Assembly: GCA_030602185.1 (NCBI GenBank)
Contig: JAUWAE010000003.1
Coordinates: forward strand, 1-45,834
Length of the DNA: 45,834 nucleotides
Source: Comamonadaceae bacterium
GTDB lineage: Bacteria > Pseudomonadota > Gammaproteobacteria > Burkholderiales > Burkholderiaceae_C
Direction of reading: 5' to 3'
The notes beneath the pieces were generated by a model, which did no database searches, had not been told where the DNA came from, and was given only the letters and a program-made list of their open reading frames with translations. Shown piece by piece: positions 6,505 to 45,834 of the stretch (its first letter is position 1; each line of letters begins with the position of its first letter). A program made the position numbers and the translations under genes.

Positions 6505-6514
6505 GGCATTCCTT

Positions 6515-6880
6515 TCAGGCGTCGCTGGCCATCAGCAACACACCCAGCACGATCAGTGCGGCACCGGCCACGCGGGGCCACGACCACGGCTCCCCCAGCC
6601 AGAACACGCCGGCCAGCAGGGTGATGACGAAGCCCAGGCTGACCAGCGGGTAGGCCAGCCCAACGTCGAGCCGCGACAGCACCCACAGCCAGGCGACCGC
6701 GCTGACGCCGTACAGGCCCAGGCCCAGCCAGACCCAGGGGTTGGTCAGGGCCTGCCAGTAGGCGCTGCCCACGCCGGCCTGCGCCGACGGGGCCATGCCC
6801 CACTTCATGGCCAGCTGCGCCGCGGCCGACAGGCACACGCACACCACCGCCACCAGCAGGGGCACCCATTTGCCCGCCAC
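6515..6880 (-). CDS. SMR/EamA-type four-helix transporter (ArnE/ArnF-like candidate flippase)
   Basis: A 121-aa protein with four predicted TM helices: residues ~6-22, 47-63, 72-92 and 98-117. It resembles the small multidrug resistance/half-EamA group, including 'YPLVSLGFVITLLAGVFWLGEP', which corresponds to the conserved third-helix region. SMR-like proteins paired with a GT-C enzyme, such as ArnE/ArnF, flip undecaprenyl-linked sugars across the inner membrane. Being between a UbiA prenyltransferase (1-nt gap) and a GT39 enzyme makes that role more likely than drug efflux here. No Glu equivalent to EmrE E14 is seen in helix 1 (VPLLVAVVCVCLSAAAQL), which also argues against a classical drug pump. 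Confidence 0.8.
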   Translation of the reverse strand: MAGKWVPLLVAVVCVCLSAAAQLAMKWGMAPSAQAGVGSAYWQALTNPWVWLGLGLYGVSAVAWLWVLSRLDVGLAYPLVSLGFVITLLAGVFWLGEPWSWPRVAGAALIVLGVLLMASDA

Positions 6881-6881
6881 C

Positions 6882-8375
6882 TCAGAGCCCCCAGGACGCC
6901 AACGCGCCCAGCAACGTCAGCCCGGCCAGCACGGCCCAGCTGAAACGGTCGTGCAGGGCAAATTGCAGCGGGTCTTCGCCGTGCAGTTCGCGCCGGCCGG
7001 TCTTGAGCCAGATGCGCATGATCCACCACAGCAGCAACGGCACCGCCCCCCACAGCCACACCGGCTGAGCGTAAAGCTCGCGCCCGTTCTGGCTGTCGAT
7101 GTACAGCGCCAGCACCATCACCGTCAGGAAGCCGCTCGCCACCCCCATGGTGCGCAGGGCGGGCAGGTCGTCCTGGTGGTAACCGCGGCCACGGGCGCGG
7201 TCCACCGCGGTGTCTTGCAGCACCTCTTCCAGTTCGGCACACCGCTTGACCAGCGCCAGCCCCAGGAACAGGAACAGCGAGATCGCCAGCAACCAGTTGG
7301 ACAGGTCCACGTCGGCCGCCAGTGCCCCGGCCATGAGCCGCAGCGTGTACAGGCCCGACAGCACCAGCACATCGAGCAGGGCCACGCGCTTCCAGTGAAA
7401 GGAATAGGCCAGCGTGACGGCGGTGTAGAACGCCAGCACCCCGAAGAACCCGGGCGAAACCGCCCAGGCCAGGGCGTAGGCCAACGGGAACATCAGCGCC
7501 ATGGCGCCCACCGCGGGGGCGATGGCGATGCGCCCGGCCGCCAGCGGGCGGTGCCGCTTGTGGGCATGGCGGCGGTCGTTGGGCAGGTCCAGCAGGTCGT
7601 TGATGAGGTAGGTGGCCGACGCGCACAGGCCAAAAGCGACGAAGGCCAGCGCCACCTGGGCCCAGACCAGCAGCTCCCAGCGGTGCGCGGCCAGCAGCGG
7701 CACGAACAGCAAGGCGTTCTTGGCCCACTGGCTCAGCCGCACGGCCTTGAGCCACTGCCGCACCGTGGCCGGCTGGGCCGGGAACACCCGCGCCTGGGGG
7801 TGCTCGGCCAGCAGGCGGCGCAGCACGCCCGGCGGCGCATTCACGGCCACCGCCTCGTGCGCGCCGGCCCATACCGGCAGGTCGGCCGAGCTGTTGCCAG
7901 CGTAGGCGTAGTGGGTGTGCCCCAGGGCCTGGGCATGCCGCTCGATCGCCTCGCGCTTGCGGTGGCGGCTGAGGTTGACATCGGCCGCCCCGGCGTTGCT
8001 GGCCAGCACGGCGTCGAACAGCTGCAGGTGCTCGGCCACCGCCTGCGCCACCCGCGCATCGGCGGCGGTGGCCAGCACCAGCGTGCGCCCGGCGGCACGC
8101 TCGGCCCGCAACCACTCGAGCAGCGCGGGCGTGTAAGGCAGCTGGGCGGGATCGGGTCGGGCGTGCTCGGCCACGCGGCGCTTGAACGCCGCCTTGCCCG
8201 CCAGCACCCACCACAGCAGACGCAACAGGAACCACGGGCTGCGGCGCAACAACAGCAGCACCGATTCGTGCAGCGTGTCGCTGTGCACCAGGGTGCCGTC
8301 CAGGTCCACGTACAGCGGCGGCAAGGCGCGGCGGCGCTGGGTCGGGTCGGGAACGGGCGGGGCGGGGGTGGTCAT
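6882..8375 (-). CDS. HAD-UbiA fusion: polyprenyl-phosphate phosphoribosyltransferase-like prenyltransferase
   Basis: A 497-aa fusion. Residues ~20-195 are a HAD hydrolase with 'YVDLDGTLVHSD' (D24, D26) and 'GNSSADLPVW' (D165). Residues ~205-497 are a UbiA membrane enzyme with the Mg-binding 'NDLLDLPNDRRH' (N259, D260, D263, D267) followed by 'RPLAAGRI', a spacing typical of decaprenyl-phosphate 5-phosphoribosyltransferases. The inferred reaction is PRPP plus polyprenyl phosphate to polyprenyl-phosphoryl-phosphoribose, with the HAD domain removing the 5-phosphate. The ATG at 8375 (MTTPAPP) was chosen; an upstream extension has no family match. No DprE1/DprE2 epimerase genes lie beside it. The SMR and GT39 genes follow at once. 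Confidence 0.85.
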   Translation of the reverse strand: MTTPAPPVPDPTQRRRALPPLYVDLDGTLVHSDTLHESVLLLLRRSPWFLLRLLWWVLAGKAAFKRRVAEHARPDPAQLPYTPALLEWLRAERAAGRTLVLATAADARVAQAVAEHLQLFDAVLASNAGAADVNLSRHRKREAIERHAQALGHTHYAYAGNSSADLPVWAGAHEAVAVNAPPGVLRRLLAEHPQARVFPAQPATVRQWLKAVRLSQWAKNALLFVPLLAAHRWELLVWAQVALAFVAFGLCASATYLINDLLDLPNDRRHAHKRHRPLAAGRIAIAPAVGAMALMFPLAYALAWAVSPGFFGVLAFYTAVTLAYSFHWKRVALLDVLVLSGLYTLRLMAGALAADVDLSNWLLAISLFLFLGLALVKRCAELEEVLQDTAVDRARGRGYHQDDLPALRTMGVASGFLTVMVLALYIDSQNGRELYAQPVWLWGAVPLLLWWIMRIWLKTGRRELHGEDPLQFALHDRFSWAVLAGLTLLGALASWGL

Positions 8376-34748: not shown

Positions 34749-35672
34749 ATGAGCACCTTCGACCCCGACGCCTTGGAATGCCTGGCCGCCATCGTGGAGG
34801 AAGGCGGCTTCGAACGCGCCGCGCAGCGCCTGTCGATCACGCAGTCGGCGGTGTCGCAGCGGCTGCGCTCGCTCGAGGCCCAGGTGGGCACGGTGCTGAT
34901 CGTGCGCAGCCGCCCGCTCAAGGCCACGGCGGCGGGCCAGCTCATGCTCAAGCACGCCAAGATGATGCGGCTGCTGCGCGCCGACCTGGAGCACGACCTG
35001 CGCGAGCTAGCGCCGAATTCGGCGCGCGGCCAGCGCGACGAAGACCGGGTCTCGGTCGCCATCAACGCCGACAGCATCGCCACCTGGGCGCTGCCGGCGG
35101 TATCGGCCCTGGTGCGCGGCGGCCTGCCGGTCGAGATCATCCACGACGACCAGGACTTCACCCACGAGTGGCTGCGCGAAGGGCAGGTGATGGGCTGCGT
35201 CACCTCGCTGGGGCAGGCGCTGCGCGGCTGCCGCCTGGAGCCGCTGGGGGCCATGCCGTACGTGGCAGTGGCCAGCCCGGCGTTCATGGCCGAGGCGCTG
35301 CCCGACGGCCTGACCCGCCACAACTTCCACCAGGTGCCGTTCATCGCCTTCAACCGCAAGGACGACTTGCAGCGCGATTTCGTCTGCCGGGCGTTTTCCC
35401 TGGCGCAGGTCACCCTCAAGCAGCTGTATGTGCCGTCGTCGGAGGGGCAGGTGCGCGCGGCCCACGCCAGCTGGGGCGTGACGGTGGTGCCCCGCCCGCT
35501 GGTGGCGACCGCGCTGGCCGAAGGCAGCCTGGTGAACGTGCGCCCGGCCTTGACCTACCACGTGCCGCTGTTCTGGCACTGCTGGAACCTCGCGTCGGAC
35601 GTGCTCGACCGGCTGAGCGCGGCCCTGCGCGAGGCGGCCACCACCAGCCTGGACCCGCTCACCCCACGCTGA
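34749..35672 (+). CDS. ArgP/LysG-type LysR regulator
   Basis: A 307-aa regulator with the helix-turn-helix 'GGFERAAQRLSITQSAVSQRLRSLE' near residues 19-43. The effector domain shows family-specific stretches of ArgP/LysG: 'VAINADSIATWALPAVSAL', 'DDQDFTHEWLREGQVMGCVTSL', 'FNRKDDLQRDF' and 'FWHCWNL'. ArgP-type proteins respond to basic amino acids and normally control LysE/ArgO exporters; here the divergent neighbours are dadA and an AGCS carrier, so the effector may be an amino acid such as alanine. The last 14 nt overlap the convergent metallophosphoesterase gene. Confidence 0.93.
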   Translation: MSTFDPDALECLAAIVEEGGFERAAQRLSITQSAVSQRLRSLEAQVGTVLIVRSRPLKATAAGQLMLKHAKMMRLLRADLEHDLRELAPNSARGQRDEDRVSVAINADSIATWALPAVSALVRGGLPVEIIHDDQDFTHEWLREGQVMGCVTSLGQALRGCRLEPLGAMPYVAVASPAFMAEALPDGLTRHNFHQVPFIAFNRKDDLQRDFVCRAFSLAQVTLKQLYVPSSEGQVRAAHASWGVTVVPRPLVATALAEGSLVNVRPALTYHVPLFWHCWNLASDVLDRLSAALREAATTSLDPLTPR

Positions 35673-36516
35673 CCAGGCCATCGGGCCGGAAAGCGCCCTG
35701 CTCGCCCTTCTCGGCGTAGCCCAAGGGGTTGGCCACCACCCGGCAGCGGCCCACGCGGTAGTCGTGCGGGCAATGCAGGTGACCGTGCAACCAGAGGTCG
35801 GCCTGCTCGAACAGGTCGTCGAGCGCGTTGCAGAAACCGGCGGTGCCGGGCGTCAGGCCGTAGCGCGGGTCGGCGCTGCGCAGGCTGGGCGCGAAATGGG
35901 TGATCGCCACCGTCGGGCCGTCGAAGGGCTGGGCCAGGGCGTCGCGCAGCCAGGCCTGGCTGCGCAACCCTTCCACGCGCATGGCCTCGGCATCGAACAG
36001 GCGGCCTTCGCGCTGGGTCTGCATTTTCTGCAGGTAGAAGTCGGCGGCGCGAAAGGCCTTGTGCCGCTGCTTGAGCCGCTGGGCTTCGGGGTCGGGCGCG
36101 TGGCCGGGTTGGGGCTTGCGGCGCGGCGGCAGGTCGGCCAGCGCGTCGTAATCGCTCCACAGCGTGGCCCCCACGAAGCGTACACCCTGCCAGAGCCAGC
36201 TCGTGCGGTCCAGCCAGACCAGCCCAAGGCGCTCGCAGGCCTCGCGCAGGCCGGCGTGGGCTTCGTCAAAGTCCAGACCGTCGTACTCGTGGTTGCCGGG
36301 CACGTAGACCACCGGCACCGGCCAGCCGGCGTACTCGGGCCGCGGCGAAAAGCGGCGCAGACCCCAGTCGGGCTCCTCCATGCGGCTGCCATCGGCGCGC
36401 AGCTGGTAGGAGCCGATGTCCCCCGCCAGCACCAGCAGGTCGGCGTCGGGGTGGGGCATGGGGCAGAAATCGGGGTTGGCCTCCAGGTGGAGGTCGCTCA
36501 GCAACTGCAGCTTCAC
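35659..36516 (-). CDS. Calcineurin-like metallophosphoesterase
   Basis: A 285-aa dimetal phosphoesterase. Conserved blocks are 'LLSDLHLEAN' (D8, H10), 'LAGDIGSY' (D33), 'YVPGNHEYDG' (N75, H76), 'AITHFAPS' and 'WLHGHLHCPHDY', the full set for binding two metals. The substrate is unknown. The GTG start at 36516 shares GTGA with the stop of the upstream LysR gene, so the regulator and the enzyme are translated together. The 3' end overlaps the convergent ArgP-like gene by 14 nt. It resembles many proteobacterial hypothetical phosphoesterases of this length. Confidence 0.9.
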   Translation of the reverse strand: MKLQLLSDLHLEANPDFCPMPHPDADLLVLAGDIGSYQLRADGSRMEEPDWGLRRFSPRPEYAGWPVPVVYVPGNHEYDGLDFDEAHAGLREACERLGLVWLDRTSWLWQGVRFVGATLWSDYDALADLPPRRKPQPGHAPDPEAQRLKQRHKAFRAADFYLQKMQTQREGRLFDAEAMRVEGLRSQAWLRDALAQPFDGPTVAITHFAPSLRSADPRYGLTPGTAGFCNALDDLFEQADLWLHGHLHCPHDYRVGRCRVVANPLGYAEKGEQGAFRPDGLVSVG

Positions 36517-37484
36517 TGGGGCAAGGCCTCCGGGTCGCCTTGCACGGTCCGCCACAGGGCGTCGCGCAGCCAGCGTTGCGCGCTCAGCCCGTGCGACTGG
36601 CGGTGCCACAGCACGTCCACGTGCACGGCCGGCACGTCCAGCGGCAGGGGGTGGTGCACCAGTTCGCTCTGGCGGCCGGTGCTGCCCACGAAGTGGCGCG
36701 GCAGCACCGTCAGCAGGTCCGACGACGACACCACCAGCCCGGCGGTGAAAAACTGGTTGACCGTCAGCACCACCCGGCGGTGCCGCGACACCGCCGCCAG
36801 CGCCTCGTCCACGAACCCGAACGGGCGGCCCGAGAAGCTCACCAGCAGGTGGCGCGCCTCGCAGTAGGCGTCCAGCGTCAACGGGCCGGCCGCCAGCGGA
36901 TGACCACGGCGCATGACCACCACGTACTCGCTGTCGTACAGCCGGCGCGACATGTAGCGCGGCGTGCTCTCCTGCAGGTGGCTGGCCCCGAGCTCGGCCA
37001 GTACACCCGGAAAATGACCGATGGCGATGTCCACATCGCCGTTGTCGAGCATGGCGCGGGGGTCGCGCGTGGTCAGCGGCAGCACCCGCAGGGTGACGCC
37101 GGGGGCCTCGCGGTCGAGGATGTCGACCAGACCGGGCATGATCTTCGACGCGGTGGCATCGGCCATGGCCAGCACGAAATGGTTTTGGGCCTGTGCGGGG
37201 TCAAAGGCGCCGGGAGCCAGCGAATCGCGCAACTGGCGCAGGGCGTCGCGCACCGTGGGCCACAGCGTGAGCGCCAGCGGCGTGGGCTCCACCCCATAGC
37301 CGGAGCGGCGCACCAGGTCGTCCCCCACCAGCTCGCGCAAGCGGCGCAGCGCGTTGCTGATCGCCGGCTGGGTGGTCGCCAGGTTGTGGGCCGCCCGCGT
37401 GAGGTTGCGCTCGGCCATCACCTCGTCAAACACGCGCAGCAGGTTGAGGTCGAGCGTACGGAAGTTGAGCTCATTCATATTCAC
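36513..37484 (-). CDS. LysR-family transcriptional regulator
   Basis: A 323-aa regulator with the helix-turn-helix 'AERNLTRAAHNLATTQPAISNALRRLREL' near residues 24-52, of the NodD/LinR-like LysR subgroup that starts 'LDLNLLRVFDEVM'. The C-terminal domain includes 'VDIAIGHFPGVL' and 'VNQFFTAGLVVSSSDLLTVLPRHF', as in that group. It overlaps the metallophosphoesterase gene by GTGA. Divergently, a small membrane protein gene starts 98 nt away, and an imperfect palindrome (37475-37498) covers its own start region. The start could be either Met of MNMN. Confidence 0.93.
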   Translation of the reverse strand: MNMNELNFRTLDLNLLRVFDEVMAERNLTRAAHNLATTQPAISNALRRLRELVGDDLVRRSGYGVEPTPLALTLWPTVRDALRQLRDSLAPGAFDPAQAQNHFVLAMADATASKIMPGLVDILDREAPGVTLRVLPLTTRDPRAMLDNGDVDIAIGHFPGVLAELGASHLQESTPRYMSRRLYDSEYVVVMRRGHPLAAGPLTLDAYCEARHLLVSFSGRPFGFVDEALAAVSRHRRVVLTVNQFFTAGLVVSSSDLLTVLPRHFVGSTGRQSELVHHPLPLDVPAVHVDVLWHRQSHGLSAQRWLRDALWRTVQGDPEALPQ

Positions 37485-37498
37485 AATGAATGTATGAC
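37475..37498. promoter_or_regulatory. Imperfect palindrome over the LysR start
   Basis: TCATATTCA (from 37476) and the reverse complement TGAATGTATGA face each other around CAA. It overlaps the LysR start codons and lies about 85 nt before the divergent gene, a position for autoregulation. Confidence 0.35.
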
Positions 37499-37582
37499 AT
37501 TACAAAAATAAAGTACACAAACATCGGGGTTTACCCTAGCATACGCCCCATTGATGTTGCACTGCAACACTTGGAGGTTCAC

Positions 37583-38101
37583 ATGACTGCTCTCGTTTCT
37601 TCTCATTCCGTTCCGTCCCTGTCCCAACCGTCCACCAAGGCCCCGGCCCAGCGGACCGCCAGCAAGGCCCCGCGCGCCCTGGTGGCGCTGCTGCTGGCCG
37701 CTTCGGTGGCCGCACTGACGGTGGTGGCCGACCAGCTCATCAGCACCTGGGCCGATGGCCACCTGCTGGTGGCATGGGTGCTGATGTGGGCGGTGGTGTT
37801 TGCCGGCAGCCTGCTGCTGGCCCATCCGGCCCGCCGTCTGGCTCAGCAATTGATGACCGTACTGGACGCCTGGGCCCAGCGCCGTGCCAAGGCCCGCGCC
37901 GAAGCCCGCTTCCTGGCCCTGGCCCGCGCCGATGAGCGCGTGATGTCCGACCTGCGGATTGCCCGGGACCGTGCCGATGGCGACACCGCCTTCACCGCCG
38001 ATGCCGTTCAGTCCACGCCCGCCACCACCGAGTGGACGCCTGGCGCCAGCGAGACGGTGTACTTCCACCACGGCCGCCGCTACATGCTGCACTACATCTG
38101 A
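37583..38101 (+). CDS. Unknown small membrane protein with two TM helices
   Basis: A 172-aa protein not recognised as any named family. Residues 1-30 are Ser/Pro/Lys-rich; TM1 is about 31-48 (ALVALLLAASVAALTVVA) and TM2 about 61-79 (LLVAWVLMWAVVFAGSLLL). A basic, Ala/Arg-rich helical segment (~85-130) follows, and a C-terminal 'ETVYFHHGRRYMLHYI'. The ATG at 37583 has TTGGAGG 7 nt upstream, and a clear terminator closes the gene, so it is a real monocistronic unit. It is divergent from a LysR regulator that may control it. Confidence 0.85.
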   Translation: MTALVSSHSVPSLSQPSTKAPAQRTASKAPRALVALLLAASVAALTVVADQLISTWADGHLLVAWVLMWAVVFAGSLLLAHPARRLAQQLMTVLDAWAQRRAKARAEARFLALARADERVMSDLRIARDRADGDTAFTADAVQSTPATTEWTPGASETVYFHHGRRYMLHYI

Positions 38102-38124
38102 CGCGGTTTCGCGCCGGTTGACCG

Positions 38125-38146
38125 ACCACCCTGCGGGGTGGTTTTT
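38125..38146 (+). terminator. Rho-independent terminator
   Basis: ACCACCC (38125-38131), loop TGCG, GGGTGGT (38136-38142), then a run of five T. It ends the small membrane protein gene and roughly marks the right edge of the core-like sequence; beyond it base composition and gene types change. Confidence 0.9.
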
Positions 38147-38311
38147 CGTTTGCTTGCCGGGTTTTACTACGCAGCTGACCCAAGAAGCCAGATTTTGTGA
38201 GTAGCGACAAGCACTTACGGCTGTCCTGCCGCAAAATTCGCTGCTGTCCAAGCTTTTACATTTTTCTTGATGCGCTGCGGCAACACCGCGTTGCCCGCCC
38301 TCCCGCCGAGC

Positions 38312-38950
38312 TTAGGCGGGGCTCTCGAACTGCGCGCTTTCCAGCCGTATCCGGCGCTCGTCCAGCAGTTCGCCTTCGAACATCCAATAGTCCGACCCGC
38401 TGACCGAGGTCGACTTGTAGCCCATCTCCTGGAGTGCCTTCAGCGCCGCACCTGACAGGCTGTAAGGCTCCCCCTTGTAGGAGACCTTGCCGCCGGGAAT
38501 CACCGTGGCCGTGACAGATTCGTCCCGTGACAGCACCAGCACATCACCGGGGTTGATGCCCAGGGCAGCCAGGTTGATGCGGGAGCGTCGCTGCTCTTTG
38601 GCTTTCTCCAGAGCTTGAGCTTCGGCGGGGTCTATATCAGCCTTGCCAGGCGTGGCCTCCTTGAAGTTTCCGATGCTCAGGGCCAGAACTGCCTTTTCCG
38701 GCTCTATCCGAAAGAACTCCCTCTTCGGATTCACGCGGTGCTCGGAAAACAGCTGGTGCAGGGTTTTTTCAACCTTCTCCAGGCTCATGTGTTCGGGTAT
38801 CTCGGCCGCGTAATGGCACTCAAACGGCAGTGGGACCGCGGAGCCTGAGCTCAGGCTGGAAATGCGGGACTCCACGCTGTCGGTCGTTAGTCCAATCTTG
38901 ACCAGCCCAGGCATGGCTTCGTTGGTCAGCACGTAAATGATGTTTGGCAT
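38312..38950 (-). CDS. GIY-YIG (T5orf172/MUG113-type) nuclease-like protein
   Basis: A 212-aa protein. Residues 1-95 match the T5orf172 branch of GIY-YIG domains: 'IIYVLTNEAMPGLVKIGLT' carries the modified GIY...YIG strands (here YVL and KIG), R29 is the likely catalytic Arg, and 'KREFFRIEPEKAV' is the end of the domain. A central acidic/basic helix (~105-125) joins a C-terminal domain (~132-203) with 'GDVLVLSRDESVTATVIPGGKV' and 'GSDYWMFEGELLDERR', similar to DUF4357-like ends of other GIY-YIG proteins. No Shine-Dalgarno site is seen at ATG 38950. Such genes are common in phage and defence islands; the role here is unknown. Confidence 0.82.
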   Translation of the reverse strand: MPNIIYVLTNEAMPGLVKIGLTTDSVESRISSLSSGSAVPLPFECHYAAEIPEHMSLEKVEKTLHQLFSEHRVNPKREFFRIEPEKAVLALSIGNFKEATPGKADIDPAEAQALEKAKEQRRSRINLAALGINPGDVLVLSRDESVTATVIPGGKVSYKGEPYSLSGAALKALQEMGYKSTSVSGSDYWMFEGELLDERRIRLESAQFESPA

Positions 38951-39021
38951 TATGTAATTTCAGCTGTATTAACCAAACGATGTCGTGGCAACAATCGAAA
39001 ATTATCGCCGGCCGACGAAAA

Positions 39022-40041
39022 CTAAGATGCCGACGTAACGCGAATCAGACAGACGCTCTCTTGTGCACGTTCGGTTATCGACTTCCCAGGTGTAGAGCGT
39101 GAATTATTGGCTTCCAAGTTGGGCAATAAGAGTCTAAGGTACTCACTTCGAACTGCCCAGTTGATGTTTTGAGGGAGAGTTCCAGTTAAGTTTAAAAAGC
39201 TACGTACAGCTGCAGCAGAAGTAACTACCCCTACTACTCGACCTTGCTCATCGATAAGGGGGCCGCCTGAGTTTCCTGGCTGAACCGGCACAGTGATTTG
39301 GAGAATGCTTGCTGCATCCCTCAGGCCACTCAGGGAGCTGACAACACCTTCGGTGTATTTGACGGAGGTGCCGAGTACGTCAGGAACAGGGAATCCGAGA
39401 GTAAAAACTTTTTGACCAACACGCAGTGACCTCTCTGGTGCTAATTCAAGAAAGTTTGACGACGGGTTCTCAATACGGAGAACGGCCAAGTCATTAGGCT
39501 GGTCAACACCGACTATCGTTGCTCGAGTTTCCACCTTATCGCCACAGGATAAGGAGATGCTTTGAGCTCCTTGAATAACATGATGCGCTGTCGCAATGGT
39601 ATATGGATTGCCTACTGCAAAACCGGTTCCTGTACTGGTAGCCGGTTTAACGGGTGCGGTGCGAGGCGGCGAAGCAATGACAGGTGCTGGCTGTTCGACG
39701 CACGCAAAAATAAGTTCAACTCGAGGGAAATTTCCCAGGATGTGTGGCGGCTGAGAAGAAGTCTCTCTCAAGAGCTTCAGCGTTTTTCCCATTCTGCCGC
39801 AATGATTGCTGGCACGTCTTTCTGCCTCACTACGGACGTCAGCCACTGATACAAATCCAGTCGCACCCTGATGGAAAACTCGAAATTCATCAGTGCCGGC
39901 AGGCGTAGGGCTAATTATCACCTCTCTTCCCCCGTAAACAGCACCATCAAAGGCGGATGGGCTTGAGGAAGCAAGGTGGACGGAAGTTGTTTGTGCACAG
40001 CCAGCCAAAAGCACTGCATACAAAAAAGCAAGGCGACTCAT
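39022..40041 (-). CDS. Lipoprotein with trypsin-like serine protease domain
   Basis: A 339-aa exported protein. The signal 'LYAVLLAGCAQTTS' contains a lipobox with Cys15, so it should be lipid-anchored. Residues ~50-115 form a small Cys-containing domain (C81, C114). Residues ~130-300 are a trypsin/HtrA-like peptidase with H154 ('TIATAHHVI'), D184 ('QPNDLAVLRI') and S258 ('PGNSGGPLI'), a complete triad. There is no PDZ domain. The ATG at 40041 has GGAGG 6 nt upstream. Base use is clearly more AT-rich than the core genes, indicating horizontal transfer. It lies beside the GIY-YIG gene on the same strand, 71 nt apart. Confidence 0.9.
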   Translation of the reverse strand: MSRLAFLYAVLLAGCAQTTSVHLASSSPSAFDGAVYGGREVIISPTPAGTDEFRVFHQGATGFVSVADVRSEAERRASNHCGRMGKTLKLLRETSSQPPHILGNFPRVELIFACVEQPAPVIASPPRTAPVKPATSTGTGFAVGNPYTIATAHHVIQGAQSISLSCGDKVETRATIVGVDQPNDLAVLRIENPSSNFLELAPERSLRVGQKVFTLGFPVPDVLGTSVKYTEGVVSSLSGLRDAASILQITVPVQPGNSGGPLIDEQGRVVGVVTSAAAVRSFLNLTGTLPQNINWAVRSEYLRLLLPNLEANNSRSTPGKSITERAQESVCLIRVTSAS

Positions 40042-40522
40042 GTATTACCTCCAAAAATGGTTGTTCTCGCTGACAAGCGCTCAGATGACTGAGTAGCAAA
40101 GAGCGGTGTCATCTTTCTTGACAGCCTCTGACGCGTGATACCAACTCTACGAGTGTACCGCTCAAGCGTTTGTTACGGCTATCTGTTTTGAACTTCCTCA
40201 GGTAGTCCAGGCAGAGCCGAGCCCCCTTGGATGACCAGTGGCCGCCTTGAAGAGAGCTCCTGTAAGTTATCACAATAAACCATCCACTTGTACGCACTAT
40301 GTCTACCACGTTATGTGTCCGAGATGTCAGATTAGTCTTCATATGTCGTGCTAGGTGCACCGATGGCACTAAATATCACCCACATCTAAGCCAGAAGTTC
40401 TTATAAATCCTGCGGGCAGTTAATAGAAAAATAAATAATCACCACAGATTAAGCTATAGGCATGCGCCAATTGCTAACTGCAAGGCTATACCTTGGCCTT
40501 ATATACATCGTTGATTTTAATA

Positions 40523-40537
40523 GTATTCATCGAATAC
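40523..40537. promoter_or_regulatory. Perfect short palindrome upstream of the methyltransferase
   Basis: GTATTC-ATC-GAATAC, 6-bp arms around 3 nt, lies 85 nt upstream of the methyltransferase ATG. It is a candidate operator, possibly for a controller protein, though no C-protein gene was found near. Confidence 0.35.
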
Positions 40538-40585
40538 GTTAGCTGCGCGTAGCCCGCTAGTTGCAAGGCTAAAAAATATCTCTAG

Positions 40586-40620
40586 ACGGTTTGTCGCCAC
40601 ATGGCATCACGACAAACCGT
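40586..40620. promoter_or_regulatory. 11-bp inverted repeat abutting the methyltransferase start codon
   Basis: ACGGTTTGTCG (40586-40596) and CGACAAACCGT (40610-40620) are perfect arms around 13 nt, ending 2 nt before the ATG. No Shine-Dalgarno site is visible, so the repeat may act as an operator or as an mRNA hairpin that limits translation of the methyltransferase. Confidence 0.65.
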
Positions 40621-40622
40621 AT

Positions 40623-41684
40623 ATGAAAAAACTATCCCCCATATCCTTCGGGTCAGTATGTTCAGGCATTGAGGCAGCTAGCGTAGCTTGGGAGCAACTT
40701 AATTTCTCTCCCGCCTGGTTTTCAGAGATTGATAAATTCACAAGCTCTGTATTGGCTCACCATTTTCCTGGAATAAGTAACCTAGGAGACCTAAAAGGTA
40801 TCAAAGAAAAAATTCAAACAAATATCGCTTCCGCCCCAGATGTGCTGGTAGGCGGGACTCCATGTCAAGCGTTTTCTGTTGCAGGCCTCCGTGCGGGGCT
40901 GGCAGACGAGCGCGGTTCCCTCTCCCTTGCTTTCGTAAAACTTGCAGATTCAATCGATGAAAAACGCCATGAAGAAAAAAAGCCCCCAGCCGTTGTCTTA
41001 TGGGAAAACGTACCAGGAGTTCTGTCGACAAAAGACAATTCCTTCGGCTGCTTTCTGGGAGGGCTTGCCGGAGAAGACTGCCCGTTGCTCTCGCCAAGGG
41101 GTGGATGGGCGGACGCTGGTTGTGTGTTTGGACCCAAGAGAGCAATCGCGTGGAGGGTCCTCGATGCCCAATATTTCGGCGTGGCACAACGGCGCAAAAG
41201 AGTCTTTGTCTGTGCTGTCGGAAATTCTCTTGGAATCTCCCCCGCTCAAATACTCTTTGAGTTTGAAGGAAGTCGACTTGATGCTGCGCCGAGAAACAGT
41301 TCGGGACAAGCCTTGGCCTCCGATGCTCAAGGCTGCTCTAATGACCATGAAAAAGTAATCGTTATCCAAGGGAATGTAATAGGAAGAACCCCGAGTAATG
41401 GTCCAGGCGGAAAAGGCTACAGCGAAACTGGTGTTGCGTTTACCTTAAATTGCACAGATAGACCTGCAATTGCAACAGCAAACGATGTTCCGGTGAGGAG
41501 GTTGACGCCTGTTGAGCATGAACGCCTCCAAGGTTTTCCAGACGGGTGGACAGATATTCCGTGGAGAGGAGCTGAGGGAGCTCCTGACAGCCATAGGTAT
41601 CACGCTATCGGTAATTCTATGGCTGTCCCAGTCATGCGTTGGATTGGCTCTAGGATTGCAGCTAGCTTGCGTGGAGGATGCTGA
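40623..41684 (+). CDS. DNA cytosine-5 methyltransferase (type II RM)
   Basis: A 353-aa C5-methyltransferase. Motif I is 'FGSVCSGIEAAS', motif IV 'GGTPCQAFSVAG' with catalytic C81, motif VI 'LWENVPG', motif VIII 'AQRRKRVF', the target-recognition region about 200-290, and motifs IX/X 'RRLTPVEHERLQGFPDGWT' and 'IGNSMAVPVM'. It should methylate cytosine in the site cut by the adjacent HaeIII-family endonuclease, inferred to be GGCC. It has no N-terminal helix-turn-helix, so autorepression by that route is unlikely. A perfect inverted repeat abuts the ATG. The DNA is AT-rich compared with the core genome. Its stop lies 2 nt before the endonuclease start. Confidence 0.96.
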   Translation: MKKLSPISFGSVCSGIEAASVAWEQLNFSPAWFSEIDKFTSSVLAHHFPGISNLGDLKGIKEKIQTNIASAPDVLVGGTPCQAFSVAGLRAGLADERGSLSLAFVKLADSIDEKRHEEKKPPAVVLWENVPGVLSTKDNSFGCFLGGLAGEDCPLLSPRGGWADAGCVFGPKRAIAWRVLDAQYFGVAQRRKRVFVCAVGNSLGISPAQILFEFEGSRLDAAPRNSSGQALASDAQGCSNDHEKVIVIQGNVIGRTPSNGPGGKGYSETGVAFTLNCTDRPAIATANDVPVRRLTPVEHERLQGFPDGWTDIPWRGAEGAPDSHRYHAIGNSMAVPVMRWIGSRIAASLRGGC

Positions 41685-41686
41685 AA

Positions 41687-42625
41687 ATGTCTCAGGTCCA
41701 AAATGGAAAAGCTTTCGAATGGGCGATAGCTATCTCTTTGGAGAGGGTTGTTGGGAAATTCCGAAAAGTGGTAATTGTGGAGTCTTTAGCTCAACAGGAC
41801 GCAAGCAGGCACTTTGAGTCCCTTTCGGATGTCAAAAAAATTGCAATGGGGAAAGCGGCTGTAGAGGCAGTGGCGCATATTTGCGAAGACTTGGAGAGAC
41901 GTCTTTCAACATTAAGAAGTGATGATTTGCCTATTTATGTAAGTATTATGCCAGATGCATCCGGTCAAGCGGGGGATGTTCGCGACCTTGTAATAATTGA
42001 AGGTCATGATTGGGAGGTGGGCATCTCGGCAAAGCACAATCACGCTGCACTCAAGCATCCTCGTGTGCCTGCTAAAAAGGGGATAGTGGATGCGTGGCTT
42101 GGTTTTCGCAGTTCAGAGGCGTGGTTCAAAGACATGGAACCTGTGTATTATTGGCTAAATCGCCATGCTGGCGAAAAGTGGTCTGACCGCTCTGACACAT
42201 TTAAAAATGTATACGCACCTACTTTGAGAGCTTTGTGTGCTGAGTTGTGGCATGTACAAGAGCAGGGCCATCCTGTAGCTGAGAGGTTACTACGGTATTG
42301 CATTGGAAATCATGATTTCTATAAAGTTATTTACTCCACAGCTGAAAAGAAAGTAATTGTGCAGGCGTTTAATTTATCGGGAACTCTTGGGAGGGACTCA
42401 TCAGGTGCTAGGTCCAGGAGGGTGAGTGTTTCCCCTCTTCCTAAAAGTCTGGGCAAATTTCACTTGTCCGGAAATACACTTTACATTCGCATGGATGAGG
42501 GTTGGCAGATTTCTATGAGAATTCACAGTGCCGATAGCGAAATTAAGCGAAGTGGGTTGAAATTTGACGTGCAATTGGAAGGGCATCCTCCACAGCTATA
42601 TACTCACCATATTTCAATTAAATAG
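41687..42625 (+). CDS. HaeIII-family type II restriction endonuclease
   Basis: A 312-aa protein matching the HaeIII endonuclease family pattern: 'NGKAFEWAIAISLER' at the N-terminus, then 'MPDASGQAGDVRDLVII' and 'WEVGISAKHNHAALKHPRVP'. D97/D100 of GDVRD together with E110 and K116 form a plausible PD-(D/E)xK-like centre. HaeIII cuts GGCC; the same target is inferred here but not shown. ATG 41687 was preferred because GGAGG (41673-41677) is 9 nt ahead; the in-frame ATG at 41678 directly follows GGAGG with no spacer. It is tightly linked to the C5-methyltransferase in an AT-rich, laterally acquired cassette. Confidence 0.85.
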   Translation: MSQVQNGKAFEWAIAISLERVVGKFRKVVIVESLAQQDASRHFESLSDVKKIAMGKAAVEAVAHICEDLERRLSTLRSDDLPIYVSIMPDASGQAGDVRDLVIIEGHDWEVGISAKHNHAALKHPRVPAKKGIVDAWLGFRSSEAWFKDMEPVYYWLNRHAGEKWSDRSDTFKNVYAPTLRALCAELWHVQEQGHPVAERLLRYCIGNHDFYKVIYSTAEKKVIVQAFNLSGTLGRDSSGARSRRVSVSPLPKSLGKFHLSGNTLYIRMDEGWQISMRIHSADSEIKRSGLKFDVQLEGHPPQLYTHHISIK

Positions 42626-42756
42626 ATAGTACGTAAACCATGAGCCTACGCAAGCTGAGGGCTGGAGCCTTCGATTTCCAATCCCCTTTGCTCACCTACT
42701 GTGCGACGGTCTGAAGTCCTGCTGGGTAACTCAGTCAAGCTCGAGCTCATGAAGAG

Positions 42757-42785
42757 TTGACTTTTTATACGGGTAGTCTTACAAT
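42757..42785 (+). promoter_or_regulatory. Sigma70 promoter of the WYL-regulator operon
   Basis: TTGACT (42757-42762) and TACAAT (42780-42785) are separated by exactly 17 nt, each one mismatch or two from consensus. The start of transcription would be near 42792, giving a leader of about 18 nt without a Shine-Dalgarno site before the ATG at 42810. Confidence 0.75.
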
Positions 42786-42806
42786 ACCCATAAAGTAAGA
42801 CTACTC
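42771..42806. promoter_or_regulatory. Large palindromic operator over the WYL promoter
   Basis: GTAGTCTTAC (42773-42782) and GTAAGACTAC (42795-42804) are perfect 10-bp arms around 12 nt; extended to 12 bp the arms match at 11 positions. The left arm covers part of the -10 and the right arm the transcription start, as expected for autorepression by the BrxR/CapW-like protein encoded 3 nt downstream. Confidence 0.8.
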
Positions 42807-42809
42807 ATC

Positions 42810-43679
42810 ATGAAGCAATCAGACAAAATCCGCTGGGGCACAGAGCGAAGACTCGAGTTCATCGAGTTCCGAATCCACTGGGAGGGCGGTGTCCGCCGAG
42901 GCGACCTGACCGAGGCTTTTGGCATCTCAACACCCCAGGCTTCCGGGGACCTGACCTTGTACCAGGACCTGGCACCCGGCAACATGGTTTACGACAGCAG
43001 CGAGAAAAAATACGTTGCCACAGCCGAGTTCAAGGCAAAGTACTGCGACATCAGCGCCGAGCGCTACCTGACCTACCTGCGTGACTGGGCCGGCGAGCGT
43101 CTCAACCTTACCGACAGCTGGATGAGTCAGGTGCCCGCAGCCGAGACCATGCCCTTGCCGGCAAGAAGGCTCAACACGGAAGTCGTCAAAAAGGCCGTGG
43201 CGGCTGTCCGCAAAAGGCGCTCTCTTGAGATTGCATACCGCTCCCTCAGCCCAGAAGGGGCGGAGCAAAGCTGGCGACTGGTGTCGCCGCATGCCTTTGC
43301 CTTCGATGGCACACGTTGGCATGTCAGGGCCTTTTGTCATCGCGACCAGAAATTCAAGGACTTCGTCCTCTCCAGGTTCACCGATGTCCGTGAAGGTAGC
43401 GAGCCTGGGTTCGACCCCGAGCAAGACCGGCTCTGGCATGAGCAGGTCGATGTCGTGTTGCAGGCCAACCCCCGCTTGAAGCCCCATCAGCGGGCAGCCA
43501 TCGAGGAGGACTACGCCATGGTCGAGCGCGTCCTGGTGCTGACTGTGCGTAAGGCCTTGCTGTTCTACCTAGAAAAACACCTGCGACTGGACTATCCCGA
43601 TGAGGGGCTACCGCCAGAAGCCAAGCCTCTGTGCGCGGTCAATCCGGAGGTCTTCTCCATCCCAGGAGCAGACAGATGA
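42810..43679 (+). CDS. WYL-domain transcriptional regulator (BrxR/CapW-like)
   Basis: A 289-aa regulator with the three-part layout of the BrxR/CapW group: a winged helix at ~1-80 ('RRGDLTEAFGISTPQASGDLTLYQ'), a WYL domain at ~130-200 ('RSLEIAYRSLSPEG', 'RWHVRAFCHRDQKFKDFVLSRF'), and a C-terminal WCX-like region ending near 'LFYLEKHLRLDYP'. The WYL motif itself reads WHV. Such proteins are dimeric repressors found ahead of BREX, CBASS and other anti-phage systems and probably sense a nucleic-acid or nucleotide signal. Here it precedes two unknown genes and an IS1595-like DDE gene. GC content is higher than in the neighbouring restriction genes. Confidence 0.9.
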   Translation: MKQSDKIRWGTERRLEFIEFRIHWEGGVRRGDLTEAFGISTPQASGDLTLYQDLAPGNMVYDSSEKKYVATAEFKAKYCDISAERYLTYLRDWAGERLNLTDSWMSQVPAAETMPLPARRLNTEVVKKAVAAVRKRRSLEIAYRSLSPEGAEQSWRLVSPHAFAFDGTRWHVRAFCHRDQKFKDFVLSRFTDVREGSEPGFDPEQDRLWHEQVDVVLQANPRLKPHQRAAIEEDYAMVERVLVLTVRKALLFYLEKHLRLDYPDEGLPPEAKPLCAVNPEVFSIPGADR

Positions 43680-43691
43680 GGTCTAAAGCGT

Positions 43692-43725
43692 GTTTAGTGT
43701 GGGCCACCTTTGATGGTGGCTAAAC
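43692..43725 (+). promoter_or_regulatory. Hairpin between the WYL gene and the downstream unknown genes
   Basis: GCCACC (43703-43708) and GGTGGC (43715-43720) are perfect arms around TTTGAT, flanked by an outer pair GTTTAG (43692-43697) and CTAAAC (43720-43725). There is no T-tract. It may reduce read-through, process the transcript, or bind a regulator. Confidence 0.4.
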
Positions 43726-43754
43726 CGCCCATCAGCAGTTCACACAGGCCAATC

Positions 43755-44051
43755 ATGAAAGTCGAAATCAAACTCCTCAACGACAAAGGGCGTCCAGTGC
43801 CGCCTGCAGCCTTGAGGTCTCAGAAGCGGTTTACCGGCGAGCTCGCACTGGCGGAGGTCCGCAGTACTGAGTTTGGCCGCATCTTGGTTGCAGCCAACTT
43901 GTTGTCAAACGACAAGGACGAGGTCTTGCCTCGCCTGCACGACGCCGTTGTTTTGCGCGTGGAGGGAGAGCGCTTGCGCATTCGAGGCTTTGAGACGGTG
44001 AACGGGGTTCAGCATGGTCAGACTTGGGACGTCAAGGTGTTGGCATGCTGA
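43755..44051 (+). CDS. Unknown 98-aa protein (operon gene 2)
   Basis: Not recognised. It starts at ATG 43755 (MKVEIKLLNDKGRPVPP), 75 nt after the WYL gene, with CAGGCC in place of a strong ribosome site. The pattern is mostly alternating hydrophobic residues, as in a small beta-rich domain ('GELALAEVRSTEFGRILVAAN', 'DAVVLRVEGERLRIRGFETV', 'TWDVKVL'). There are no TM helices and no catalytic motif. Its 3' end overlaps the next gene by 7 nt, so the two products are probably made in fixed ratio and may act as partners. Confidence 0.75.
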   Translation: MKVEIKLLNDKGRPVPPAALRSQKRFTGELALAEVRSTEFGRILVAANLLSNDKDEVLPRLHDAVVLRVEGERLRIRGFETVNGVQHGQTWDVKVLAC

Positions 44052-44767
44052 AGGTGTTCTTGCACAGCTGCGCGCCAGGCGGTGTGAGCGCCTTCAACAG
44101 GCTTGGGCGCCTGGACATTGGCTACGACAAGCTCGACGCTTACGCTGATTACAAGGTCATCCTCCAGCAGGCGGGCATCGGCGAGTTCCCGCCAGCGAAG
44201 TTGAAGGGCTATCCCCGCTGGTCAGCCTCTATCTGGGACCTGGTGGCGCGCTCCGTCTGCCTGTCCCTCTGGCAAGAAGAAGTGCTGCCTCCGGTCGGGC
44301 TCGCCCGCCGTGGCGCGTACACGGAGCACCTCACGGCCATGGTCGAGCATTGGCCCGATGGCTTTGAAACCGGCCGCTCAACAGTCGGCATGGCCAGCAT
44401 TCGCATGCTGCGCAAGAAGTGCCACTATGTGGCCAGCTTTGAGGACGACATCCTGGGCGAGCAGCACAGCAGCGAGTTTGTCCACACCCCAGACGCATTG
44501 TCACCATGGGATTTGTTGGCAAGGGCCTACGCTTGGACATGCCACGAGATTTTTCGGCTGCCGGCACGTCCTGAGATTTACACCAAGCTCACCGTCGAGG
44601 AGAACGGCCAGACCTTGGTGCCCCTCGAGATGGTCAAGGAACCGGCCAGGACGGGGTTGTCGCGTTGGATGCTCGGCAAAGAGGTTCAGCCGCTGGAATG
44701 CGAGTTGGTCACAGGGCCTTGCGTTCGCGAATCAGACTATGTTTGTTTCCTGAGGACCGCGGTATGA
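44045..44767 (+). CDS. Unknown 240-aa protein (operon gene 3)
   Basis: Not recognised. A soluble protein with mixed composition. Aromatic-rich parts are 'GYPRWSASIWDLVARSVCLSLW' and 'SPWDLLARAYAWTCHEIFRLP'; 'FEDDILGEQHSSEF' is an acidic stretch. No signal peptide, TM helix or standard nuclease motif is seen. Four Cys (11, 61 region, 116 and 172 region) do not form a clear zinc site. ATG 44045 overlaps the upstream gene by 7 nt, and the stop overlaps the next start as ATGA, so it is translationally coupled on both sides. Confidence 0.78.
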   Translation: MLKVFLHSCAPGGVSAFNRLGRLDIGYDKLDAYADYKVILQQAGIGEFPPAKLKGYPRWSASIWDLVARSVCLSLWQEEVLPPVGLARRGAYTEHLTAMVEHWPDGFETGRSTVGMASIRMLRKKCHYVASFEDDILGEQHSSEFVHTPDALSPWDLLARAYAWTCHEIFRLPARPEIYTKLTVEENGQTLVPLEMVKEPARTGLSRWMLGKEVQPLECELVTGPCVRESDYVCFLRTAV

Positions 44768-45834
44768 GCGAGGCCGCCGCCCAGAAGCCCCGAGTTCGGC
44801 GAGCCAGCTCTGACGCGACGCGCTTTCACATGTCGCCCAAGGCCGTCGACCGGTCTGTGGAAGAGTACGCCACCTGGTCCGAGAAGAAGTGCGTCAAGCA
44901 CCTGGCGGTTATCCGCTGGGGCAGCTTTGAGGTCATGCCCTGCCCACATTGCGGCACCTGCACGAAGCACTATTTTTACGAGCAAGACTTGCGCTGGAAG
45001 TGCAAGCATTGCGGCAGCAAGTTCAGCGTGACGTCACAGACGGTCTTTTCTGGTCGCAAGTTGCCCTATCGCAAGCTGTTGGCGGCTATCCATCTGTGGG
45101 TTTGCGGGGCGGCAGGGCAGCCTGCGCTTGAGCTACGGCGCATGCTCAATCTCAAGAGCTACAACAGCGCATTTACCCTTGTGAGCAAAATGCGCGAGGG
45201 GCTGATGCGGGGGTTCAACACTGGGCTCATCAGCGGTGTGGTGGAGATGGACGGGGCCCATGCTTCTGGCCGAAGGGCAGGCACAAAGCGCGGTAAGCCT
45301 CTGAACTACCAGTCGCCTGAGTCGGTGCAGAGCCTTGAAGAGCAGGCCTTGCTCACAACGTCCGCCAGGCAGCGAAAGCGCCGAGAGGAAAAGGCGGCAT
45401 TGTTGGCCGCAGGCGGCCGCGTGGACCCCAATACGGGGGCTGTGCACGAGGCCAATCGCCGCGTGGTCGTGACGATACGCCGGCGCACCGCGGCGAAGGG
45501 GCAAGGCGCGGTGTTGACCAGGGTGGGCATTGGGCTGGCTGAGACGCCCGACGTTGTGGAGGCCTTGGCCAACAACTACATCGCCGTGCCGGAGTCGGTG
45601 CTGGCCACGGACACAGGGACTGCGTTCTCAAAGTTGGGCAAGCGGTTTCAGCTTCACCTGCAGGTCAATCACAGCGAGACGCTTCGCGGGCCGAACGGCG
45701 AAAACAACAACCTAGCGGAGAGCTTCAGCGCTCGGCAGGACCGTTCCGAAAAAGGCGTGTACTTGAACATCGAACCCAAGGACCTGCATGACTATGCAGT
45801 GGAGACCGCGTTCAGGGAAGACCACCGGCGTAAA
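44764..45834 (+). CDS. IS1595-like zinc-ribbon DDE transposase-type protein, 3' end outside the window
   Basis: Open for 357 codons to the last base, so the C-terminus is missing. A zinc ribbon is present as C60-x2-C63 ('MPCPHCG') and C80-x2-C83 ('KCKHCGSKFSVT'), as in IS1595-family transposases. The DDE core is D163 ('VVEMDGAHASG'), D283 ('LATDTGTAFSKL') and E319 ('NNNLAESFSAR'). About 50 extra charged residues (~180-230) lie between the first two acids. The ATG overlaps the previous stop by ATGA, an unusual link for a transposase. It may be an active IS1595 element with passenger genes, or a domesticated member serving the WYL-controlled operon. Confidence 0.85.
   Translation, partial: MSEAAAQKPRVRRASSDATRFHMSPKAVDRSVEEYATWSEKKCVKHLAVIRWGSFEVMPCPHCGTCTKHYFYEQDLRWKCKHCGSKFSVTSQTVFSGRKLPYRKLLAAIHLWVCGAAGQPALELRRMLNLKSYNSAFTLVSKMREGLMRGFNTGLISGVVEMDGAHASGRRAGTKRGKPLNYQSPESVQSLEEQALLTTSARQRKRREEKAALLAAGGRVDPNTGAVHEANRRVVVTIRRRTAAKGQGAVLTRVGIGLAETPDVVEALANNYIAVPESVLATDTGTAFSKLGKRFQLHLQVNHSETLRGPNGENNNLAESFSARQDRSEKGVYLNIEPKDLHDYAVETAFREDHRRK

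Follow-up and report, generated by a model that had tools for sequence, protein, structure and literature searches.

The four co-directional genes at the end of contig JAUWAE010000003.1, from a Comamonadaceae bacterium (assembly GCA_030602185.1), very probably form the transposition module at the right-hand side of a large DDE transposon of the IS1595 family, which starts at position 38159 and continues past the contig end. This contig (C37, 45,834 bases), referred to in its full length as the window, belongs to an assembly of 2.8 Mb in 333 contigs, and its end falls inside the fourth gene. In silico, the reading is supported by repeats at the element ends, target duplications in relatives, a conserved gene module, exchange of the regulator, defence genes as cargo, and insertion next to hairpins. 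An initial annotation, made from the sequence alone, had singled out the interval 42757-45834; this holds the genes but is too narrow, since the unit seems to extend from 38159 to beyond the contig. Of the two readings offered there, a regulated IS1595 transposon with passenger genes fits, whereas a domesticated recombinase/nuclease system serving in defence is not supported: the element as a whole is probably a carrier of defence genes rather than a defence system of a new kind.

The four-gene module and its relatives

The module and its presumed control region comprise the following features:

42757..42785, + strand: sigma-70-like promoter of the transposition operon, TTGACT-17-TACAAT (10/12 matches; a consensus match only)
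42773..42804, + strand: inverted repeat over the -10 region, presumed operator of the WYL repressor
42810..43679, + strand: gene 1 (g1), winged helix-turn-helix (wHTH)-WYL repressor of the BrxR/CapW family, 289 aa; WYL domain E=4.2e-13
43755..44051, + strand: gene 2 (g2), presumed transposon accessory protein, 98 aa; adjoins g3 in 8 genomes
44045..44767, + strand: gene 3 (g3), presumed transposon accessory protein, 240 aa; 7-nt overlap with g2
44764..45834, + strand: gene 4 (g4), IS1595-type DDE transposase with a zinc ribbon; ATGA overlap with g3

The gene order and both overlaps agree with the initial annotation. In the window g4 is cut by the contig end and consists of 357 codons, still open; a complete copy (locus L005, below) encodes 421 aa. 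The protein matches DDE_Tnp_IS1595 (E=1.2e-17), Zn_ribbon_IS1595 (E=1.2e-8) and NF033547 (76.4 bits; cut-off, 75). The assignment of gene 1 to the BrxR/CapW-type WYL regulators is borne out by strong homology to solved structures (CapW 7tb6, E=5.8e-61; 7t8k, 1.3e-45; 7qfz, 3.6e-30), which match most of its length. The promoter and the palindrome covering it are also present, the latter as perfect 10-bp arms (42773-42782/42795-42804) that are separated by a 12-nt gap and overlap the promoter-like site. The number of sigma-70-like sites in 38000-45834 is no higher than in shuffles (3 versus a mean of 3.3), so the promoter-like site is unremarkable by itself.

A scan for g3 in a species-genome collection, pattern-based and therefore able to find close relatives only, gave a single one, on contig JABEVE010000004.1 of a Burkholderiales metagenome-assembled genome (L005, genome G399). 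Because all four genes recur there in the same order (protein identities of 70% for g1, 72% for g2, 76% for g3 and 80% for g4), the window gene set is more than chance. Comparison of the two DNAs reveals a further shared stretch away from the genes, in which 26 of 27 bases are identical: it occupies window positions 38158-38184 on one strand and the final 27 bases of L005 on the opposite one, an arrangement with the geometry of terminal inverted repeats. Within G399 the repeat GGGTTTTACTACGCAGYTGACCC lies in three places, C36:186833 (+), C36:202139-202161 (-) and the start of contig C6, and a reversed-pattern control gives 0 matches in that genome. C36 ends with the same 99 bases with which C6 begins, owing to an assembly overlap, so C6 supplies the right flank. 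The left flank ends with GATTTAGG and the right flank begins with GATTTAGG, an exact 8-bp target duplication.

The G399 element is complete, at 15,329 bp with 23-bp repeats and ends at C36:186833 and 202161. From left to right, its cargo consists of PLD-helicase, PDC-S14, DUF1156 methylase, DUF3780 and DUF499 genes, all of them PADLOC families. These are followed by the module: WYL, DUF6471, g2, g3, g4 and a convergent gene of 178 aa, which matched no Pfam or PHROGs model and by eye encodes a coiled-coil/winged-helix protein. The small DUF6471 gene lies between g1 and g2 on the opposite strand; none was found in the window.

Among 389 genomes of the family, a g4 search finds relatives in 13 (E<=1e-15); the surroundings were examined in 11 of the 12 genomes other than the window's own, that is, in all but G704. 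Genes g2, g3 and g4 occur together in eight genomes, seven from the family (7/389: the window's own, G492, G463, G736, G529, G562 and G744) and G399. A tree of 25 g4 proteins places these eight in one clade (100/100), inside which the two copies that bear a WYL gene are sisters (99/99). The DDE triad (D, D, E) and the four zinc-ribbon cysteines are present in 25/25 aligned proteins, which speaks for g4 as enzymes rather than relics. In G736 the g4 reading frame is split into two pieces, of which the larger has the triad, and stops interrupt the aligned region of some other g4 relatives from the order and family searches. By sequence, the convergent gene was detected at 16 of the 25 loci. As a side observation, a DUF6471-like helix-turn-helix gene lies beside g2 on the opposite strand in 6 of the 8 g2-g3-g4 elements (L059, L082, L083, L084, L085, L086); in the window and in L087 none was detected.

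In the order, 24/399 genomes have g4 relatives (E<=1e-10), and no g2-g3 lies beside them at the 10 loci covered (9 of 23 other genomes). Relatives of g3 occur in 3/399 of these genomes, two of them weak and without g4 within 13 kb, and the g3 profile finds 1/340 genomes of the class, the window's own. Plasmid and phage collections yield no g3 match. Plasmids contain 143 records matching g4, all below 60% identity, two of which have one place covering >=80% of the query; with the L083 g4 as query there are none at 1e-20. Viral contigs give nothing for g4, the g3 and g4 profiles or the exact repeat.

No useful-score match to g2 or g3 is found in Pfam, PADLOC or NCBIfam, and their families give one weak single-member match to Pfam (E=0.0046). 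Profile searches of the PDB reach at best E=0.066 for g3 and 0.72 for g2, with no convincing relative of g3, and return nothing up to E=1 for g4; structures predicted from two sequences each are of low confidence (pLDDT 38.7 for g3, 50.4 for g2). Wider relatives of g2 do exist (phrog_5560, E=1.9e-10). Weak full-length matches to g2 are small proteins on Massilia and Methylomonas plasmids (L008, L009, L010), with no WYL, g3 or g4 annotated alongside and in one case next to a DNA polymerase Y gene; g2 thus also occurs outside this transposon. Proteins like g3 are found without g4 at L055 (G387 C4, 5845-7735) and L054 (G167, 7439-8128), the former between LexA-like and HAD_SAK-like genes, companions also found in the transposons. 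A HAD_SAK_2-like gene recurs near the module at L082 (16031-16429), L084 (8304-8972), L086 (6145-6609, by eye) and L087 (5248-5784). At L053 (G387, 4359-6865) a distant WYL gene lies 400 bp ahead of a distant DDE gene of IS1595 type, both on one strand; paired ends were not found there, and it is possibly an independent WYL/IS1595 pairing.

Element ends and cargo

At 15 of the 25 g4 loci, inverted repeats occur as a pair and are flanked by an 8-bp duplication that is exact. Elements with the window's repeat type measure 15,329 bp (G399), 12,222 bp (G492), 9,478 bp (G463), 5,062 bp (G529) and 25,588 bp (G736), that of G744 being spread over two contigs. A second repeat type delimits elements of 24.4 kb and 12,390 bp in G553, 5,577 bp in G625, 5,486 bp in G444, 6,326 bp in G771, 13.9 and 11.6 kb in G281 and 15.4 kb in G182, with the G434 element again on two contigs. 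The duplication is exact in all 15 relatives for which both ends are known, 11 of which were found by repeat sequence alone. A relaxed repeat scan gave no ends for its 15 loci; shorter patterns then gave 7 elements in six genomes. Reversed-pattern controls gave 0 matches in 13 genomes. The initial annotation had proposed to check whether the WYL gene, both small proteins and the DDE gene remain together elsewhere without flanking terminal repeats. The trio g2-g3-g4 keeps together in eight genomes; WYL is present in 2/8 and terminal repeats flank 6/8, all six with the exact duplication; no pair of ends was found for the window or G562, the latter having a single repeat site with 1 mismatch that is not shown to be an element end. 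Repeats set tightly around the DDE gene alone, named at the outset as a result that would speak against the four genes as a unit, were not seen: the repeats enclose cargo, regulator, g2-g4 and the convergent gene. The G736 element (L084, 25.6 kb) is a side case, in which g4 is interrupted and further IS-like genes are visible by eye while matching ends and duplication persist.

The IS1595 domain scores of g4 would also suit an ordinary short insertion sequence that had landed by chance behind unrelated genes. This is scarcely credible, given that g2-g3-g4 keep the same order in 8 genomes and that the elements, at ~5-26 kb, have their ends outside the cargo. In L005 no exact 8-nt inverted match links the region around the g4 start (160 bp) with that behind the gene (670 bp), in what is a limited test.

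The left end of the window copy and its surroundings comprise:

38124..38143, + strand: intrinsic-terminator-like hairpin just outside the element, presumed target-site landmark (8 pairs, 5 GC)
38151..38158, + strand: expected 8-bp target-site duplication, left-hand copy, by analogy with 15 relatives; the other copy would fall past the contig end
38159..38181, + strand: left terminal inverted repeat (IRL), 23 bp, 23/23 identical to the G399 left end
38312..38950, - strand: cargo, T5orf172-domain protein of the PADLOC candidate defence family PDC-S57 (7.1e-69)
39022..40041, - strand: cargo, protein with a trypsin-like serine protease domain (Trypsin_2, 8.8e-28)
40623..41684, + strand: cargo, C5-cytosine DNA methyltransferase of a restriction-modification (R-M) pair (2.4e-40)
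41678..42625, + strand: cargo, HaeIII-type restriction endonuclease of the R-M pair (RE_HaeIII, E=2e-66)

The IRL pattern has 0 matches in 100 shuffles. Given this repeat, the R-M pair, which the initial annotation had correctly recognized alongside the operon, is most readily taken as transposon cargo, as are the T5orf172 and trypsin-like genes. A second repeat copy, allowing up to 3 mismatches, is absent from the assembly; because only one copy is found in the genome, the right end is taken to be missing from it. By analogy with G399, the right repeat is expected roughly 1 kb past the contig end, to be followed by TGCTTGCC, and the copy may still be mobile. In the order sample, the repeat with <=3 mismatches occurs in the window's own genome and at two 3-mismatch sites (G186, G293), which are at chance level because the reversed control gave 7 sites. 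A repeat-like match on the Polaromonas plasmid pPNAP01 (25 nt, 92%) was likewise rejected as chance (E=0.2, no IS1595 gene annotated within <=20 kb). The window has no tRNA genes, and 35000-45834 has no Rfam match at gathering score.

A PADLOC scan of chosen proteins gave matches in 6 of 9 elements (window, G399, G492, G736, G444, G771), the types being Fic in G492, PDC-S37/Mko-like in G736, Avs2-like in two frames in G444 and AlwI-type R-M in G771. There was no match in G463, G529 or one protein beside the G562 module; the elements of G744, G553 (two), G625, G434, G281 (two) and G182 lay outside the scan. At L093 (10696-13720), Avs2-like sequence extends over two frames inside a 5.5-kb element and may be a decayed or truncated Avs2.

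Exchange of the regulator

A WYL gene lies beside g2-g3-g4 in only two of the eight genomes, the window's own and G399. In the other six elements (6/6), a LexA/UmuD-like protein is encoded upstream of g2 on the same strand, in G736 ~7 kb upstream and beyond IS-like genes; the three such proteins scanned match Peptidase_S24 (1.7e-26, 2.2e-26 and 1.7e-24). The WYL gene is therefore a swapped-in switch. LexA-type repressors respond to RecA on single-stranded DNA. CapW/BrxR proteins are reported to repress until single-stranded DNA is bound (PMC13373217), and PafBC, a WYL activator, is described in PMC11804915 as being switched on by single-stranded DNA. Plausibly, then, the two kinds of regulator read the same signal.

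Alternatively, the WYL gene could be part of the R-M cargo instead of the transposition operon. Relatives manage without it, BrxR homologues commonly accompany defence genes (PMC9122601), and 3 of 5 plasmid neighbourhoods examined, from 669 matching records, have R-M, BREX or ubiquitin-like genes. Nevertheless, this is improbable: in both elements the WYL gene is upstream of g2 and co-directional with it, as the LexA-like gene is in the other six, and the two WYL-bearing elements carry different cargo.

The initial annotation had favoured g2 and g3 as defence effectors. In its strongest form, this idea would make the operon a new BrxR-regulated anti-phage system, with g2, g3 and a domesticated DDE nuclease as effectors, parked in a defence island. 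A BrxR/CapW regulator does head the operon, an R-M pair adjoins it and candidate defence genes lie beside the L005 copy, and g2 and g3 belong to no Pfam family beyond the weak match noted above. Yet the set is enclosed by inverted repeats and 8-bp duplications in relatives, the regulator is not conserved with g2-g3-g4, the defence genes vary between the scanned elements, and g4 retains its catalytic triad. An anti-phage system of this kind is accordingly very unlikely, and the effector roles of g2 and g3 are not supported. A WYL gene heading an operon beside defence genes does not make that operon a defence system.

Insertion beside terminator hairpins

The flanks of the elements were searched for a GC-rich hairpin followed by T's, reading toward the element and ending 8-20 nt before its end. 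A first version of the test, which overlooked stems containing G-T pairs or 5 GC pairs and treated AT-extended stems differently, was positive at 7/16 left ends and 0/15 right ends (background, 157/40,000). With G-T pairs and 5-pair stems allowed, 10/16 left ends and 0/15 right ends are positive, versus 438/60,000 (0.7%) random positions in 37 sequences, elements included. All elements of the GGG type, the window's end type, are positive (7/7 left ends, window included), at 14-17 nt from the hairpin; in the window, the GC core of the hairpin ends 17 nt ahead of the left element end. At positions 10-120 nt downstream of 246 long open reading frames, a hairpin falls within the 12-17-nt window at 67/9,102. 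The effect is large and oriented, although it comes from a small sample and from a test that was adjusted once.

Two G281 insertions may be described separately. The elements at C13:50932-64802 and C20:59918-71526 occupy matching positions in palindromes of one kind, and the duplication GGCAAGAC spans the hairpin loop. The G182 insertion lies in the arm of another palindrome.

Several facts count against the transposon reading and its hairpin rule. No movement of an element has been observed. The window's right end is not assembled and one repeat copy is present, so its own element is only inferred, and the genus is represented by this genome alone, which leaves no empty site for comparison. 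The scan that first turned up four of the 15 elements (G553 second copy, G625, G444, G771) demanded the exact duplication, and ten of the 25 loci are without two ends (window, L044, L045, L046, L047, L048, L050, L053, L086 in G562, and L091), several of which run into a contig end or the limit of the retrieved sequence. The criteria of the hairpin test were relaxed once, its first version having given 7/16; outside the GGG group only 3/9 left ends are positive, at 12-14 nt. By eye, the hairpin of the first G553 copy (G553a) is on the right-hand side, the two G281 elements and that of G182 are inserted within palindromes, and G625 and G771 show nothing clear.

The same transposon could also show this pattern through selection against harmful insertions and not through target choice: sites behind terminators are mostly harmless, so insertions there would be the likeliest to persist, the set of surviving insertions is small (16 left ends), and G553a by eye has its hairpin on the other side. 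However, a distance of 12-17 nt in 10/10 positive left ends, the lack of any positive right end among 15, the excess over positions just downstream of long open reading frames, and the G281 and G182 insertions in the loop or arm of palindromes all favour target choice, and selection alone is a rather unlikely explanation, if one to be taken seriously.

Under the transposon reading, g4 would cut and join at the 23-bp inverted repeats, giving 8-bp target duplications. We infer that g2, g3 and the convergent gene expected past the contig end assist it as accessory proteins, and one or more of them probably contributes to the choice of target sites next to terminator hairpins. The module would be kept off by the WYL repressor until single-stranded DNA builds up, as upon DNA damage or phage entry, with the LexA/UmuD-like repressor taking its role in relatives. 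The cargo would be exchangeable anti-phage genes, represented in the window by the HaeIII-type R-M system. More broadly, the balance tilts slightly towards an as yet undescribed group of IS1595-type DDE transposons with several proteins. Its members would choose hairpins, mainly intrinsic terminators, as targets, landing at a nearly constant distance and orientation; they would use interchangeable single-stranded-DNA/DNA-damage switches (LexA/UmuD-like or CapW/BrxR-like) and serve as general carriers of defence genes (R-M, DUF499/PLD-helicase type, Avs2-like) among related bacteria. Such a group would be a specific means by which defence islands turn over, its movement being linked to a damage signal of the sort that phages can cause, and the hairpin side would be a gene-sparing landing site.

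Comparison with known systems

Tn7-like transposons are large, cargo-carrying DDE elements whose accessory proteins select the target; Tn7 itself duplicates 5 bp, unlike the 8 bp of the present group. Among g1-g4, in the assembled part of the element, Pfam, PADLOC and NCBIfam reveal no TnsABC/TniABQ- or TnsABCD-type families.

Gene 1 shares the wHTH-WYL architecture of the BrxR/CapW regulators, is homologous to solved members, and likewise heads an operon behind an inverted repeat, although its gap is 12 nt versus <8 bp in PMC9122601. It differs in heading transposition genes and not defence effectors, in a position where relatives have a LexA-like gene; a BrxR-controlled defence operon would keep its regulator with its effectors, whereas WYL is found in 2/8. 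The main text of that BrxR survey contains the strings 'transpos' and 'IS1595' 0 times.

With respect to landing site, bacterial-C group II introns also insert directly after rho-independent terminators (PMC8919778), but they are ribozyme retroelements, not DDE transposons, so that the landing place alone is alike. The DDE elements of the TnGBS/ISLre2/ISKra4 group insert at a fixed distance beside a transcription signal, 15-17 bases upstream of the -35 region and oriented for one family (PMC3942029); they differ in having a Mutator-type transposase and in using promoters, not terminators.

Within the IS1595 family, elements usually have a single transposase gene and 8-bp duplications (PMC8101967), and an ordinary member of 712 bp generates 8-bp duplications, some within genes (PMC12561309). 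The closest in plan, tISCpe8 and MTnSag1/tISSag10 (tIS), are 1.7-2.0 kb elements with a lincosamide resistance gene, 25-bp inverted repeats and low insertion specificity, according to PMC5704250. The present group shares with them an IS1595 DDE transposase, inverted repeats, short duplications and passenger genes, but differs in its size of ~5-26 kb, its three tightly packed genes plus a convergent one, its dedicated repressor, its defence cargo and its hairpin-adjacent insertion.

Literature on IS1595 with defence, R-M or passenger genes and on transposon insertion at terminators, covered mainly as titles and abstract openings with subscription journals mostly outside it, did not describe the group: IS1595 elements with passenger genes are known, while this module, size and targeting were not found there. 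Siguier 2009 reportedly defined the IS1595 family and may describe larger members. If true, near-fixed-distance insertion beside hairpins is a target-choice rule not met for IS1595 in the literature consulted. The relatives depart from the usual single transposase gene in having g2-g3-g4 and the convergent gene within 5,062-25,588 bp. At the same time, they share the family's DDE domain and zinc ribbon, with a left repeat in the window and both ends plus the 8-bp duplication in 15 relatives. Consequently, the element is an IS1595 member by its transposase and, in relatives, by its ends and duplication, and it is new in make-up, size, regulation and apparent target choice.

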